Assembly: GCA_947488625.1 (NCBI GenBank)
Contig: CANKZR010000001.1
Location: 1,302,001-1,366,000 of the forward strand
Direction: 5' to 3'
Length of the DNA: 64,000 nt
DNA from: an uncultured Sphingomonadaceae bacterium
GTDB lineage: Bacteria > Pseudomonadota > Alphaproteobacteria > Sphingomonadales > Sphingomonadaceae
Made by a program: the position numbers and the translations under genes. Positions 27,907-34,364 of the stretch are shown here, piece by piece. Position 1 is the first letter of the stretch. Every line of letters starts with the position of its first letter. Below the pieces are notes generated by a model, which was given only the letters and a program-made list of their open reading frames with translations, was not told the DNA's origin and made no database searches.

Positions 27907-28665
27907 ATGTCCGACCAGATAGCCCGCCTTCTCTCGATCATGGCACGGCTACGCGATCCCGATGACGGATGCGAATGGGACGTCGCGCAAACGTTCGAAA
28001 CCATTGCGCCATATACGATCGAGGAGGCCTACGAGGTTGCCGACGCGATCGAACGTGGCGACATGGCGGACCTGCGCGGCGAGCTTGGCGATCTTCTGCT
28101 TCAGGTCGTCTTCCACGCGCGCATGGCAGAAGAAGCCGGTCACTTCGCCTTCAACGATGTCGCCCACGCGATCTCTGACAAGATGGAGGCGCGCCACCCA
28201 CACATTTTCGGAGACGAAGGCGGCGTGATGGACGGCAAGCGATGGGAAGACATAAAGGCTGCTGAACGCGCGCAAAGCGGATCGACCAGCACGATGGACG
28301 GCGTGGCGCGTGCGTTGCCAGCCTTGCTACGCGCCGAAAAACTGCAGAAACGCGCTGCCCGCGATGGCTTCGATTGGCCGGATCACCAGGGGCCGGCGAC
28401 GAAGGTGGCGGAGGAAGTGCAGGAATTGCGCGAAGCCGATGATGCTCACCGCGCGGAGGAAGCGGGCGACCTGCTCTTTGCGGCCGTCAACCTCGTGCGA
28501 TCGTACGGCATAGGTGCAGAGGATGCACTGAAAGCTGCAAATGCGAAGTTCGAGCGACGCTATCGCGCGATGGAAGACCTGGCAGGCGGCGGCTTCGCGC
28601 AGCGCGATCTTGATGCGCAGGAAGCGCTTTGGCAGCAGGTCAAGCGGCAGGAACGCAACGTCTAG
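27907..28665 (+). CDS. mazG: Nucleoside triphosphate pyrophosphohydrolase MazG
   Basis: 252 residues from the ATG at 27907 (GTG at 27898 is an alternative). Two MazG domains are seen. The first has ETIAPYTIEEAYEVADAIE and the metal motif ELGDLLLQVVFH; the second has KVAEEVQELREAD and EEAGDLLFAAVNLVR. The enzyme hydrolyses NTPs to NMPs, cleaning aberrant nucleotides and, in E. coli, lowering ppGpp. Its stop overlaps the convergent hflX stop by 4 bases, so no terminator fits between them. Confidence 0.94.
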   Translation: MSDQIARLLSIMARLRDPDDGCEWDVAQTFETIAPYTIEEAYEVADAIERGDMADLRGELGDLLLQVVFHARMAEEAGHFAFNDVAHAISDKMEARHPHIFGDEGGVMDGKRWEDIKAAERAQSGSTSTMDGVARALPALLRAEKLQKRAARDGFDWPDHQGPATKVAEEVQELREADDAHRAEEAGDLLFAAVNLVRSYGIGAEDALKAANAKFERRYRAMEDLAGGGFAQRDLDAQEALWQQVKRQERNV

Positions 28666-29984
28666 AGCGTTTCGAACCGCCCCCATTCCTTTTCTGTCAG
28701 CCGCACTTCGATGTGCCGCATCGGGCCGTGCTCGGACTCTCCCCCGTCATTATCCGAGAGCACTTCACCGTGGGCATGAAGCCAGGCAATGCGTGCCCCG
28801 TCAGACGCCGGAATCATCAGTGAATGGCGGCGGGCCCCTTCTGTCAGCACCGCGCCAAGCTTCTCGCGCAGACCTTCTATGCCTTCCCCGGTGATTGCCG
28901 AGATGGTTACGACATTCTCGTCCTGCGCGGCCACATCCGCCAGTTCATCACGCAATTCACCGTCCAGCAGATCCCACTTGTTCCAGACCTCTAGAATGGG
29001 TGTCGGCTCCCCTTCCCCCTCCACCTCGATCACGCCAAGATCGGCGAGCACCTGCAGAACCTGTTTTTTCTGCGCGGACGTATCGGGATTGGCAATGTCG
29101 CGGACATGAAGGACGATATCGGCGGCGGTCACTTCTTCCAGCGTGGCGCGAAATGCTGCGACAAGCTGGGTCGGCAGGTCGGAAATGAAGCCTACCGTGT
29201 CCGACAATATGGCTTTTTCAACGCCGGGTAACGTAAGGGCGCGCATTGTCGGGTCCAGGGTCGCGAACAACAGATCTTCTGCCATCACTTCCGCGCCGGT
29301 CATGCGATTGAAAAGGGTCGATTTGCCAGCGTTCGTGTAACCGACCAGGGCCACGACGGGCCATGGCGCTCTGCCCCTCCGCTTGCGGTGCAATTCACGC
29401 GTCTTGCGAACCTGCTCCAGTTCACGGCGCAGTTTTGCCATGCGATCACGGATCATCCGGCGGTCGGCCTCGATCTGCGTCTCACCCGGTCCGCCGAGGA
29501 AGCCGAAACCACCGCGCTGCCGCTCAAGGTGGGTCCAGCTGCGGACGAGGCGGCTGGCCTGGTAATCAAGATGCGCCAGTTCTACCTGCAAGCGACCTTC
29601 GGCCGTCGCCGCGCGTTCGCCGAATATCTCCAGAATCAGCCCCGTCCGGTCGATAACCTTGCGACCGATCTTGTCTTCGAGATTGCGCTGCTGGATTGGC
29701 GAAAGCGCGCCATCCACAATGACGAGCTCGGCTTCATGCAATTCGCAATCAGTGGCGATGCGCTGCACCTGGCCTTCACCGAATAAAGTATTCGGCTTTA
29801 CCTCGCGCACTGGCAGAATGAAGGCTTCGGCCACGACGATGCCGATGGCCAGGGCGAGCCCCTTCGCCTCTTCAAGACGTGCGTCAGGATCGTCATCGCG
29901 GCGCTGGCTGCGGATGTCCGGGCATACGACGAGAGCCCGCGCACCGCGGGTAACTTCGCCTTCGATATCGTCGTCTATGATCAG
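28662..29984 (-). CDS. hflX: Ribosome-associated GTPase HflX (probable non-ATG start)
   Basis: G1 is [10 protein letters not shown]3 is DTVGF and G4 is NKWD; a glycine-rich [11 protein letters not shown] region and a long N-terminal HflX domain precede them. HflX splits stalled or stressed ribosomes. The first ordinary start codon in frame is GTG at 29834 (390 residues), but about 50 conserved-looking residues ([18 protein letters not shown]...) are encoded upstream of it with no ATG/GTG/TTG. The open frame reaches a CTG at 29984-29982, which overlaps the hfq TGA and has AAGG 9 bases upstream. This would give 440 residues, the usual HflX size; this start is inferred. Convergent overlap with mazG at the 3' end. 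Confidence 0.85.
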
Positions 29985-30565
29985 TCTTTTTCGCCTTCAG
30001 TGGCATCATCATCCAGATCGTCGTCGGTCAGATCGACCGGGCGATCGGGCTGGATCGTAGATACAGCGTGCTTGTACGCCAGTTGAACATACCCGTCACG
30101 CTCCAGCAGCATGCAGAACAAATCGAAGCTGGCGATCCTGCCCTGCAGCATTACGCCGTTCACGAGGAACATGGTAACCGCAACGCCCACATCGCGTACA
30201 CGCGTGAGGAAAATGTCCTGCAACTGGCGCACCTTGCGTCCGCCGTTGGGGCCGGTGCCGAACTGCTTTGCATCGACGGGCTGACCGGGCATGATCGTGG
30301 AGATCGCGTGCTTGTAGACGAGCTGCGATTGCCCGTCCCGGCGCAGCAGTATCGAGAAATTATCGAACCAGGTGACGATGCCCTGCAATTTCACACCCTT
30401 CACCAGAAACATGGTGACCGGTGTTTTTTCGCGGCGCAGATGATTGAGGAAAACATCCTGCAGATTGGCGTTCTTTGCGCCATTTGCAGGCTTTTCGGCG
30501 CGCGGTTCAGTGGCTTCGACCTCTTCTGCAGATCGTGTACGCGCTGAAAGGGTGCCCTTGGCCAT
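29981..30565 (-). CDS. hfq: Tandem two-domain RNA chaperone Hfq
   Basis: 194 residues with two complete Sm-fold Hfq domains at about 34-96 and 114-176, offset by exactly 80 residues without gaps (LQDVFL/LQDIFL, TMFLV/TMFLV, YKHA/YKHA). Ahead is a 33-residue charged extension, and after domain 2 an acidic tail. Domain 1 keeps the rim patch RREK and GVKLQG. In domain 2 the rim residues become RDVG and the distal-face lysine (E. coli K31) is methionine. Both keep the proximal Gln8 and YKH residues. Three chains could form the usual six-subunit ring with alternating faces. It is a global sRNA-mRNA chaperone. hflX starts on its stop codon. Confidence 0.95.
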
Positions 30566-30723: not shown

Positions 30724-32115
30724 TCAGTCCGCTTCGCCTTCTTCGTTGTTGCTTCGCTCGTTCATGCCAAGCAATTTCAGCTTACGATGCAAAGCGGAAC
30801 GCTCCATGCCGATAAAGCCTGCGGTCTTGGAGATATTGCCCGAAAACCGCCGGATCTGGATACGTAGATACTCGCGCTCGAAACTCTCGCGCGCTTCGCG
30901 CAGGGGAACCCCCATCAGGGTCGATATGCCCCCGCCCTCTTCGCTTGAGGCGCCCGTCAATTCCGATGGCAGCATATCCGGCGTGATAGCTTTGAAATCC
31001 TCTCGAGGCGCGAGAATCACGGTGCGCTCGATGACATTACGCAACTGCCGCACGTTGCCTGGCCAGTCGTAGGCCTGCATCGCAGCAAGGGCCTCGGAGG
31101 CGATGGTGGGGGGCTCTACCCCCTGCTCTCGCGCGTAGCGCGTGAAGAAATGGTCGGCGAGAGCGGGTATGTCTTCGCGGCGATCAGCCAGCGGCGGGAT
31201 ATCGATGGGCACCACATTAAGCCGGTAGAACAGGTCTTCGCGGAAGCGTTTCTCCTCGATCTCCGTCAACAGGTCGCGCGCGGTGGATGATACGACGCGA
31301 ACGTCCACCCCCACCTGCCGGTTACCGCCTACCCGCACGAAGCTTTGATCCGTCAGCACGCGCAGGATGCGCGCCTGCGTGCTTTCGGGCATGTCCGCCA
31401 CCTCGTCGAGGTAGAGCGTGCCGCCATCGGCAAGTTCCAGCAGCCCAGCGCGTACCAGTTTGCCGTCCGCCTCCTCGCCGAATAGCTCATGCTCGAACCG
31501 CTCCGGCGTGATGCGTGCCGAATTGACCGTGACGAAAGCCTTGTCGGCGCGCGGGCTCCAGGCGTGCAGCAGCCGTGCAGCCACTTCCTTGCCCGCACCA
31601 GCAGGACCGCTTACCAGAACGCGGCTTCCCGTGTTGGCAACGCGCTTCAATGTGGCGCGAACGGTGTTTATGGCGCTGGAATTGCCTGTGAATTCATCGT
31701 GCGAAGCCATGCCTTCGCGAAGCCGTTCGTTCTCGCGGCGCAGGCGTTCGGTTTCCGTGGCGCGGGCGACAAGGTGGAGCAGCTTTTCCGCCTCGAAAGG
31801 CTTTTCGATGAAATCCATCGCCCCGCGGCTCACTGCGGAAACTGCGGTATCGACGTTGCCATGTCCGGAAAAGATGATGACGGGTAAGTTCGGCTCCCGC
31901 GCCTTTACTGCATCCAGCACTTCCAGCCCGTCCATCGGACTACCATGAAGCCATACGTCTAGCAGAACGAGGCTGGGGCGGCGTTCGTCGATCATGGCCA
32001 GCGCACTGTCGCTGTCGCCAGCGGTGCGGCATTCATAGCCTTCATCGCTGAGGACGCCGGCTACGAGATCGCGAATATCGCGCTCGTCGTCGACCACGAG
32101 GATATCGAGTGCCAT
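30724..32115 (-). CDS. ntrX: Response regulator NtrX
   Basis: 463 residues: a receiver domain (phospho-acceptor Asp53, conserved VVDDERD and KPF), an AAA+ domain with GPAGAGKE (170-177) and GTLYLDEVADMP, and a C-terminal Fis-like helix-turn-helix. The sigma-54 contact motif GAFTGA, expected near residue 217, is replaced by EEADGKLVRAG, so activation of sigma-54 polymerase is unlikely. It pairs with NtrY 21 bases upstream. NtrYX systems respond to nitrogen and redox state and affect the envelope in alphaproteobacteria. Confidence 0.93.
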   Translation of the reverse strand: MALDILVVDDERDIRDLVAGVLSDEGYECRTAGDSDSALAMIDERRPSLVLLDVWLHGSPMDGLEVLDAVKAREPNLPVIIFSGHGNVDTAVSAVSRGAMDFIEKPFEAEKLLHLVARATETERLRRENERLREGMASHDEFTGNSSAINTVRATLKRVANTGSRVLVSGPAGAGKEVAARLLHAWSPRADKAFVTVNSARITPERFEHELFGEEADGKLVRAGLLELADGGTLYLDEVADMPESTQARILRVLTDQSFVRVGGNRQVGVDVRVVSSTARDLLTEIEEKRFREDLFYRLNVVPIDIPPLADRREDIPALADHFFTRYAREQGVEPPTIASEALAAMQAYDWPGNVRQLRNVIERTVILAPREDFKAITPDMLPSELTGASSEEGGGISTLMGVPLREARESFEREYLRIQIRRFSGNISKTAGFIGMERSALHRKLKLLGMNERSNNEEGEAD

Positions 32116-32135: not shown

Positions 32136-34364
32136 TCATTCGGCGGCCTCGCTGCTTTCGTCCAGGTCGCCGGGATGGATCGCAAAACGCAGCGTAGCCT
32201 GCGTGCCGCCCTTGGGTAGCGAGGTAAATTCGAGGTCGCCTGCGTGCTCCTCGACGATCTTCTTCACGATGGCGAGGCCAAGGCCAGTGCCCTTCTCACG
32301 CGTGGTGACATAGGGCTCTATCACGTTCTCCCCGCCTTGCGGCAGACCAATGCCATTGTCTCTCACCGTAATCTCGATCTGGTCGCGCCGCCGAGCCATC
32401 GCGACTTCTATTCGCCCGCGCCAGTCCGCCGGGGCATCGGAGAGGTGGGCCTCGACAGCTTCTGCCGCGTTCTTCAGCACATTGGTCATCGCCTGCCCCA
32501 GCTGGTGGCGGTCGCACTCGATGGGCGGAATTTCTTTTTCGGCGCTGAAGGCGTAGGTGATTTCCGGATGCGCCACTTCCTGCAGGAACAGGGCTTGCCG
32601 GACGAGGTCGACGGCATCCTCTATACGGAAAACCGGCTTGGGCAGGCGCGCGAAGCTGGAGAATTCATCAACCATCTTGCGCAGGTCGCCCACCTGCCGG
32701 ATTATGGTGCCGGTCAGTTCGTCGAACAATTCCTTGTCCGTCTCGATCTGTTTGGAATAGCGGCGTTTCAGGCGTTCTGTCGCAAGCTGGATCGGGGTGA
32801 GCGGGTTCTTGATTTCATGTGCGATACGGCGCGCCACGTCAGACCACGCGGCCTGCCTCTGATCCAGCAGCTGCCGCGTGATATCCTCGAACGTGATCAC
32901 GTATCCTTCCGTCGCCGGAGAGAGTTGCACGGCCAGGGTCAGCAATTCGCCATTGCGGCTGATCTGGATGATTTCACTGCGCCCTTCATCCTTCACCAGT
33001 TGCGCCAGCTGCGGTGCGATATCCTCCAGTGGTTGATCGACCGGTATCGGGCCTTCGCTATCAAGCAGCAGGTGCTGGGCGGAATTGTTCATCAGCAGGA
33101 TGCGACCATCGCCATCCAGCGAGATGATTCCCGCGCGAATTGATTGCAGCACCGCCTCGATAAAGGCGCGGCGCTCGGCCAGTTGTCGGTTGGCTCCCAA
33201 AAGAGCATCGGTCTGACGCCCGATCTGCTCGCTCATACGGTTGAAAGCGCGATTGAGCAGGCCGATCTCGTCCTGCCCCGTGCGTCCGGACACGCGCATG
33301 GCATAATTGCCCGCCCCTATCTCCTGCGCGACTTCGGCCAGTTCGGCCAGCGGCTTTACCTGTCGATCCGCAAAGCGAAGCGCCGCCCATACCGCCAGAG
33401 CAACCAGCGCCAGCGAGACACCGAACAGGGCAATGTTGAACTGCAGTTGCAACACGCGCGCCTGCTCGGTCAGTTCCTCGTAACTTTGCGCGACGTTTTG
33501 CGCGCGGCGATATTGGGATAGCGCCTCTGCATCTGAATCCCGCGCCGCGTACAGATATATTCCCAACGCTTCGTCCAGCGGCACGACCGCTTCGGTCCGC
33601 TCCTCTGTAGCCCGTAGCACGACGGATTCGCCGCTGCGGAATTGCTCCAGCTCCTCCGGACTGATGCGCTGGCGCTGCGTATCATCATCCGGATCGACGA
33701 TTGCGATAACGCGAAACCCGCCATCCTGCGCCTCCTGCAGAATGGCACTTTCACTGAGCCCGCGATTAAGGACCTGCAGCGAATACTGCTGCTGGAAGTC
33801 CAGGCTCGTCATGCTCATGACCTGCAGGAAGAAGCGAAGGTCGCTCGCCATGGCCATGGTATTGTCGCCCACGGCGCGCTGGTTCTCGTCGTAATAGCCG
33901 CGCGCCAGTTCGTTGGCATTGTCCAGGATACCGCGGGAATCGTCGCTGAACCAGAATTGCACGCCGGACTGGAACAGGATCGATGCGAACACGGCCACGA
34001 ACAGCGTGGGGATCGCCGCCAGAAGCGAAAAGAAAAACACCAGGTTTACATGCAGCCGCCCCGTGGTGCCCCCTGCCCTGCGCTTGGCGATCCGCCGCCC
34101 CCACAGGACGACAAGGCCCAGCGCGGGCAACAACGTGCCGACGAGCAATGCGGCAGCCTGCCACGATGGAACGGGCTCTCCGAAGTTCGGGCGACCGGCA
34201 AGGGTGAACCACACCGTCACCAGCATTACGGCGAGGGCCGCGTAGCAAGCGATCTCCAGCCACAAGAACAGGTTGAGCCGACGCGAGGCGACTGCCGCGC
34301 GGCGCAGGAAGCGGGAGCGTTTTGCGGTCGCAGGGTCAGGTTCGGAGTGTGGCTCTTGGGTCAC
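32136..34364 (-). CDS. ntrY: Sensor histidine kinase NtrY
   Basis: 742 residues. Several N-terminal transmembrane helices (about 25-150) flank an extracytoplasmic sensing region up to a further helix near 300. A HAMP domain follows, then a PAS domain, HisKA with [18 protein letters not shown] (His516), and an ATPase domain with the N box, GIGLP and GTGLGLAI. It probably phosphorylates NtrX. The membrane topology fits an envelope signal such as redox state, but the ligand is unknown. ntrX follows after a 20-base gap. Confidence 0.93.
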   Translation of the reverse strand: MTQEPHSEPDPATAKRSRFLRRAAVASRRLNLFLWLEIACYAALAVMLVTVWFTLAGRPNFGEPVPSWQAAALLVGTLLPALGLVVLWGRRIAKRRAGGTTGRLHVNLVFFFSLLAAIPTLFVAVFASILFQSGVQFWFSDDSRGILDNANELARGYYDENQRAVGDNTMAMASDLRFFLQVMSMTSLDFQQQYSLQVLNRGLSESAILQEAQDGGFRVIAIVDPDDDTQRQRISPEELEQFRSGESVVLRATEERTEAVVPLDEALGIYLYAARDSDAEALSQYRRAQNVAQSYEELTEQARVLQLQFNIALFGVSLALVALAVWAALRFADRQVKPLAELAEVAQEIGAGNYAMRVSGRTGQDEIGLLNRAFNRMSEQIGRQTDALLGANRQLAERRAFIEAVLQSIRAGIISLDGDGRILLMNNSAQHLLLDSEGPIPVDQPLEDIAPQLAQLVKDEGRSEIIQISRNGELLTLAVQLSPATEGYVITFEDITRQLLDQRQAAWSDVARRIAHEIKNPLTPIQLATERLKRRYSKQIETDKELFDELTGTIIRQVGDLRKMVDEFSSFARLPKPVFRIEDAVDLVRQALFLQEVAHPEITYAFSAEKEIPPIECDRHQLGQAMTNVLKNAAEAVEAHLSDAPADWRGRIEVAMARRRDQIEITVRDNGIGLPQGGENVIEPYVTTREKGTGLGLAIVKKIVEEHAGDLEFTSLPKGGTQATLRFAIHPGDLDESSEAAE

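Follow-up and report, generated by a model that had tools for sequence, protein, structure and literature searches.

Two unlike Hfq domains in one chain: a tandem Hfq of a Sphingomonadales family and its putative three-chain ring

Hfq helps regulatory RNAs to pair with mRNAs. Most descriptions of it are of a symmetric homohexamer, in which it is hard to alter three of the six sites. The window analyzed here, a stretch of 64,000 nucleotides from an uncultured Sphingomonadaceae bacterium, contains a gene for an Hfq with two Sm domains in a single chain. What kind of ring would such a chain build, and do its halves do the same work?

A chain of this kind has been seen before. According to the available text of Yang et al. 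2010, the Hfq of Zymomonas mobilis (ZMO0347), also from the Sphingomonadales, has two Sm-like domains in one chain, as in six other species of the order, and the authors raised the idea of testing whether three chains form a ring (PMC2877685). An earlier note on this DNA had mentioned tandem Hfq proteins in sphingomonads, which this account bears out. Because Yang et al. 2010 and the NCBIfam model NF010691 (PRK14091) cover them, neither the tandem architecture nor the trimer idea is new. The available text on ZMO0347 holds no analysis of domain-specific residues, origin or distribution (PMC2877685). Among the top-ranked titles and abstract beginnings of the open-license literature we found no description of domain asymmetry in a tandem Hfq, and in PMC7546472 the strings domain, trimer, hexamer, Sm-like and duplicat are all absent. 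What is new here is an apparent single origin in the window's family and a fixed residue code that distinguishes the halves.

Excerpts of three reports indicate that Hfq is functional in the cells of sphingomonads: a Zymomonas hfq mutant has reduced tolerance of several inhibitors (PMC2877685), deletion of hfq in Zymomonas alters the expression of many genes (PMC9797736), and in Sphingopyxis granuli, whose hfq may or may not be a tandem, the Hfq-dependent small RNA SuhB represses thnR (PMC6563040).

The gene and its surroundings

The gene and its neighbors, all on the minus strand, have the following features.

29981..30565, minus strand: tandem hfq, 194 amino acids, an uninterrupted single frame with Pfam and NCBIfam matches
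30464..30565, minus strand: N-terminal extension, residues 1-34, mostly of low confidence in the AlphaFold2 model
30275..30463, minus strand: Hfq domain 1 (D1), residues 35-97, matched by Pfam and aligned with E. coli Hfq
30224..30274, minus strand: linker of 17 residues between D1 and D2
30035..30223, minus strand: Hfq domain 2 (D2), residues 115-177, matched by Pfam and aligned with E. coli Hfq
29984..30034, minus strand: acidic C-terminal tail after D2, residues 178-194
28662..29834, minus strand: hflX GTPase gene, the downstream neighbor (coordinates of the frame with a usual start codon)
30724..32115, minus strand: ntrX response regulator gene, the upstream neighbor, identified by profile matches
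32136..34364, minus strand: ntrY sensor kinase gene (NtrY_N, 384.6 bits)

The tandem Hfq at 29981-30565 is real. The Pfam model for Hfq (PF17209, curated cut-off 27 bits) matched the protein twice, and when the domains were scanned alone D1 scored 108.9 bits (E 9.1e-32) and D2 84.9 bits (E 2.9e-24), which excludes chance matches. The two full domains in one chain, 80 residues apart, that the earlier note had described are thus those at residues 35-97 and 115-177. That note would have withdrawn its reading had a stop or frameshift come between the domains; we found neither, and all 147 tandem loci that we aligned have a single open frame. The Pfam scores and the open frames of the relatives together rule out an artefact or a chance reading. 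The protein also matches NF010691 (294.9 bits, cut-off 270) at model positions 7-175 of 176, so that this equivalog model, which carries the generic name RNA chaperone Hfq and no other, fits nearly the whole protein.

A search of the genome (listed completeness 100%) showed that the tandem gene is its sole hfq and recovered no second Hfq able to mix into rings. The order ntrX-hfq-hflX is common to 140 of 149 two-domain loci (three of the 149 being copies of the window locus); six were scored otherwise, probably through a stop-to-stop frame that overlaps ntrX, and three lacked one neighbor in the stretch examined.

The idea that an internal start lets D2 be translated on its own was considered and rejected, there being no conserved start codon ahead of D2 in the 147 loci: a GTG three codons before D2 is present in only 10 of them, the window included, and the TTG found at the first D2 codon in 48 is the ordinary leucine of the sequence LQD. 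Upstream of D1, and before a variable stretch, 98 of the 147 loci have a TL[ST][AVP]R motif (mostly TLSAR or TLTAR), a pattern that overlooks near variants; many short N-termini are without it.

Several other signals at the locus deserve mention. The conserved frame of hflX extends back to the stop codon of hfq (about 29984), where the window and some relatives have no ATG, GTG or TTG. Among the 135 tandem loci outside genus g12 (described below) that have an hflX hit, the codon of the hflX frame that overlaps the stop of hfq (29982-29984, minus strand, in the window) is CTG in 95 and TTG in 15, in one case followed by a stop; 55 of the 95 CTG loci have no usual start within the next 11 codons. 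From this pattern hflX may start at the CTG, in coupling with the end of hfq; the overlapping CTG may also be a chance product of a last codon that ends in C before TGA. A 159-codon frame antisense to hfq (30068-30547, plus strand) has similar counterparts in many relatives and is not taken as a gene. In a scan of the window with Rfam, two tRNAs alone reached threshold, and shuffled sequence gave as many promoter and terminator patterns as the surroundings of hfq.

Distribution and origin of the tandem gene

We surveyed an order sample of 396 genomes, 313 from the window's own family (f1) and 83 from other families. Two Hfq domain matches were found in 300 of the 313 f1 genomes and one in 13; no f1 genome of this sample had more than two. 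In the other families one match was found in 76 of the 83 genomes, none in six and two in one (G001), the second match of which is a fragment near the end of a contig. In a second sample a full tandem was recovered at E <= 1e-50 from 335 of 397 f1 genomes, representing 79 of 96 genera. Among the 20 listed of the 62 misses, one (G094) is a diverged tandem of genus g12, and 12 of the 20 were examined: 10 have a single-domain Hfq, and the other two, which are 66-67% complete, gave no match. The 10 include an assembly (G1119) with two hfq loci encoding an identical protein, perhaps an assembly duplicate given its 7% contamination, and another (G1146) with a stop inside its single Hfq domain.

No tandem was found outside f1: the class sample gave 5 hits in 385 genomes and the phylum sample 18 in 398, all in f1, at a limit of 1e-50 that a very diverged, g12-like tandem would escape. 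The tandem is present in 80 of the 80 nearest relatives (the best 80 of 467), and among named relatives in Aurantiacibacter, Croceibacterium, Novosphingobium, Qipengyuania and Erythrobacter. The NF010691 cut-off was passed in 53 of 80 genomes searched with that model, and 14 tandem genomes, g12 included, lie below it. The tandem hfq also has a match in two pieces in Sphingomonas parapaucimobilis, at NZ_CP155749.1:256059-256505, annotated RNA chaperone Hfq; the 880-kb record that contains it is classed as a plasmid. No phage match covered 80% of the query.

How did the tandem gene arise? In a tree of HflX and NtrX, which is independent of hfq, the 67 tandem genomes formed one clade (SH-aLRT 99) and 13 single-domain f1 genomes fell outside it. 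A second tree (71 rows), with 10 further single-domain genomes and 36 tandem genomes, gave the same outcome (SH-aLRT 99) and placed G1127 nearest to the tandem clade. The first tree (93 rows) was built by a quick method without bootstrap, and its deepest root is unsure because one f1 row (L189) groups with the outgroup, an uncertainty that leaves the tandem clade unaffected. In a tree of the domains themselves (28 tandem loci, 63 columns) D2 formed one clade with support of 100; D1 needs two changes and was not cleanly apart from single-domain sequences. The simplest reading of these trees is that a single in-frame duplication occurred on the stem of the tandem clade, with no loss or reversal in the sample. 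Loss of D2 as the source of the single-domain f1 genomes is not supported, since the 13 and the further 10 all lie outside the tandem clade.

A residue code that differs between the domains

Aligned with E. coli Hfq, D1 of the window protein has all five basic residues of the rim (R44, R45, K47, R75 and R76), together with K56 (E. coli position 28), K59 (position 31) and N69 (position 41). It is itself derived, having Lys at position 28 versus Asn in the 52 single-domain loci that we used for comparison. D2 reads R124-D125-V126-G127 and E155-R156 along the rim, with N136 at position 28, M139 at position 31 and L149 at position 41 on the proximal face; R16 is thus retained as residue 124, and Glu stands in the place of the Caulobacter rim residue R49. 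D2 also keeps Q116 (position 8), F150 (position 42) and Y164-K165-H166 (positions 55-57), and Q8, F42, Y55-K56-H57, Q33, Q52 and T61 are present in both domains. The alignment agrees in each particular with what the earlier note had read from the letters: D-V-G at positions 17-18-19 of D2, Met at its position 31, and Gln8 and Tyr-Lys-His retained in both domains. A canonical Gram-negative homohexamer would have a full basic rim on every domain, and because D2, with R-D-V-G and Glu in the R49 place, does not have one, we do not class the protein as such.

To what extent is this asymmetry shared? We aligned both domains of the 147 tandem loci with the 52 single-domain loci; the resulting counts reflect one event on the stem and subsequent conservation rather than independent events. 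Across five rim positions (E. coli 16, 17 and 19 and Caulobacter R49 and R50) the mean number of basic residues was 5.0 in single-domain Hfq, 4.96 in D1 and 1.96 in D2, and the full set of five was present in every one of the 52 single-domain loci and in 142 of the 147 D1 domains. D2 mostly retains R16 (Arg in 115 of 147) and a basic residue in the R50 place (140), and it has acidic residues at position 17 in 78 loci, at position 19 in 57 and in the R49 place in 130.

Distal and proximal positions differ too. D1 is most clearly changed at position 28, where all 147 D1 domains have Lys; all 52 single-domain loci and all 147 D2 domains have Asn there. Position 31 is Lys in all 52 single-domain loci, Lys (140) or Arg (7) in D1, and Met in 142 of 147 D2 domains. 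Position 41 is Asn in 51 of 52 single-domain loci, Asn in 137 of 147 D1 domains and Leu in 132 of 147 D2 domains. Other clear changes in D2 are M63 to Gln (143 of 147) and W38 to Ala or Ser (138 of 147). In 146 of the 147 proteins positions 28 and 31 are both Lys or Arg in D1, and neither is in D2; the remaining protein has one such residue in D2 as well as the two in D1. Conversely, Q8, Q52 and K56 are invariant in both domains (147 of 147 each), with F25, L32, F42 and T61 nearly so; in D2, H57 and T61 are present in 147 of 147, F42 in 142 and Q33 in 139. Median net charge is +4 for single-domain Hfq, +5 for D1 and -1 for D2; that of the linker (13-24 residues long in the 147 loci) is 0 and that of the tail after D2 is -6, compared with -4 for the tail of single-domain Hfq.

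Judged from these alignments, the domains differ in a way that is fixed throughout the sampled clade and that includes the proximal face (position 41). The earlier note's picture of a D2 that has lost most of its basic rim and K31 holds, and the rim and distal differences between the domains recur throughout the 147 loci. The weak rim and distal sites that it ascribed to D2 are read from the residues lost; of the A-site, Q33, Q52 and T61 persist.

Genus g12 (L170-L179; ten genomes of 2.1-2.9 Mb) has a fast-evolving tandem Hfq. All ten have K28 in D1 and N28 in D2, and many other signature positions deviate: Met is at position 31 of D2 in only five of the ten, and D1 varies at usually fixed sites, with Gln in place of H57 in three.

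Could the fusion simply act as an ordinary Hfq, the differences in D2 being drift with no functional meaning? D2 is less conserved than D1 (75% versus 87% mean pairwise identity over 57 loci), and its rim letters differ from genus to genus, as drift would have it. Yet drift would not be expected to fix Asn 28, Met 31 and Gln 63 in D2 and Lys 28 in D1 at the frequencies given above, or to leave D1 and D2 alike under purifying selection. Uncorrected pN/pS was 0.16 for D1 and 0.22 for D2 (50 disjoint pairs, g12 left out), values that are rough because synonymous sites are partly saturated; the comparison indicates that both domains are under purifying selection and that D2 is constrained. We consider neutral duplication highly improbable.

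A second alternative is that D2 is mainly a structural spacer, which would complete the ring, bind little RNA and leave an Hfq with three active protomers. The absence from D2 of most of the rim charge, of K31 and of a polar residue at position 41, along with its negative median charge, is what a spacer would lead one to expect. A spacer, however, would have no need of base-contacting residues, and D2 has Q8, Q52, K56, H57 and T61 without exception in the 147 loci and F42 and Q33 in nearly all. This explanation is, in our estimation, unlikely.

Proposed assembly of the ring

AlphaFold2 modeled the window protein with a pTM of 0.75 (pLDDT >= 70 at 142 of 194 residues) and a relative with a short N-terminus with a pTM of 0.84 (pLDDT >= 70 at 146 of 162 residues); we ourselves estimate that a pTM of about 0.5 would result if the placement of the two domains relative to each other were uncertain. 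The models confidently predict that D1 and D2 are packed together within one chain, in an arrangement that may not be ring-like. Searches with Foldseek and VIA matched each half to Hfq chains, the best being that of Caulobacter crescentus (PDB 6gwk), and no solved tandem chain was among the PDB matches listed. The Caulobacter protein differs in having one domain per chain, in being a homohexamer and in having an acidic tip on each protomer.

Excerpts of the structural literature give the residues of the code a setting. The acidic tip of Caulobacter Hfq lies against the rim of the adjacent protomer, with D81 and D82 near K19 and R18, and E75 contacts R49 and S39 of the neighbor (PMC6561178). 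On the proximal face a base is in contact with position 41, and the contact of N28 in the second A-site is mediated by water (PMC10628458). In a Pseudomonas structure K31 contacts the A-site adenine at its 5' phosphate through the backbone amide (PMC6422490); because residue 31 contacts RNA in this way, the effect of the side chain is uncertain and the change of K31 to Met may matter less than it appears to. The place of the Caulobacter residue S39 is Thr in D1 and mostly Ala in D2, and D2 mostly has no equivalents of Caulobacter K19, K21 and R49 or of the hydroxyl in the S39 place.

On the combined strength of the residue code, the model and the analogy with Caulobacter, we think it probable that the protein is the cell's general RNA-pairing chaperone Hfq built as a covalent dimer, three chains of which would close the usual six-Sm ring as a pseudo-hexamer with domains in alternation, D1-D2-D1'-D2', and with specialized halves. 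After the one duplication, the residue changes that we observe would have split the work. D1 retains the full basic rim and has gained one more lysine at the distal turn. In D2 the fold, the proximal core (Q8, F42, Y55, K56 and H57) and Q33, Q52 and T61 of the A-site are still there, and most of the rim charge, K31 and the polar residue at position 41 have been given up. The acidic tail, which survives after D2 only, would in an alternating ring lie opposite the basic rim of D1 in the next chain, and the neutral linker would run to D2, which has lost most of its tail-docking residues. We favor the alternating ring because docking of the tail on the next protomer would put it on the basic rim of D1', an argument reasoned from one homohexamer crystal structure, that of Caulobacter Hfq.

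Alternatively, six chains could assemble like with like, a symmetric hexamer of D1 domains being stacked on, or tethered to, a hexamer of D2 domains with another job. Hfq rings are seen to stack in crystals (PMC5379935, from the text available), a linker of 13-24 residues could bridge two rings, and D2 forms the single clade described above for the 28 loci of the domain tree. A ring purely of D2 domains would, however, turn the acidic tail toward a rim without most of its basic residues, and for this reason we disfavor separate rings; the packing of D1 against D2 within a chain in the AlphaFold2 models also speaks against them, although it would be compatible with stacking as well. We regard this assembly as quite unlikely.

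If the ring does alternate, its outcome would be three annealing-competent rim sites, with proximal and distal faces of three-fold rather than six-fold symmetry. We hold it fairly likely that such three-fold asymmetry is built in: a basic rim confined to D1 would be gated by the tail of the neighboring D2; the lysines of the distal face would go from six single residues to three pairs, the Lys and Arg residues at positions 28 and 31 staying at six per ring; and the pore would have three canonical and three altered U-pockets. Non-identical Sm domains are likewise found in the rings of eukaryotic Sm and LSm proteins (in part from the available text of PMC2877685), which differ in being heteroheptamers of separate chains with no fused pair; no shared duplication is implied.

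In this family of bacteria, then, evolution appears to have altered three of the six sites of Hfq once and to have kept the change, and the single-domain relatives just outside the tandem clade are ready controls. If the proposal is true, one could test how many rim sites are required for annealing, whether a protomer is acted on by the acidic tail of its neighbor, and how an asymmetric ring serves RNAs that use different faces. The tandem protein would then be a natural test of which sites of Hfq must act together.
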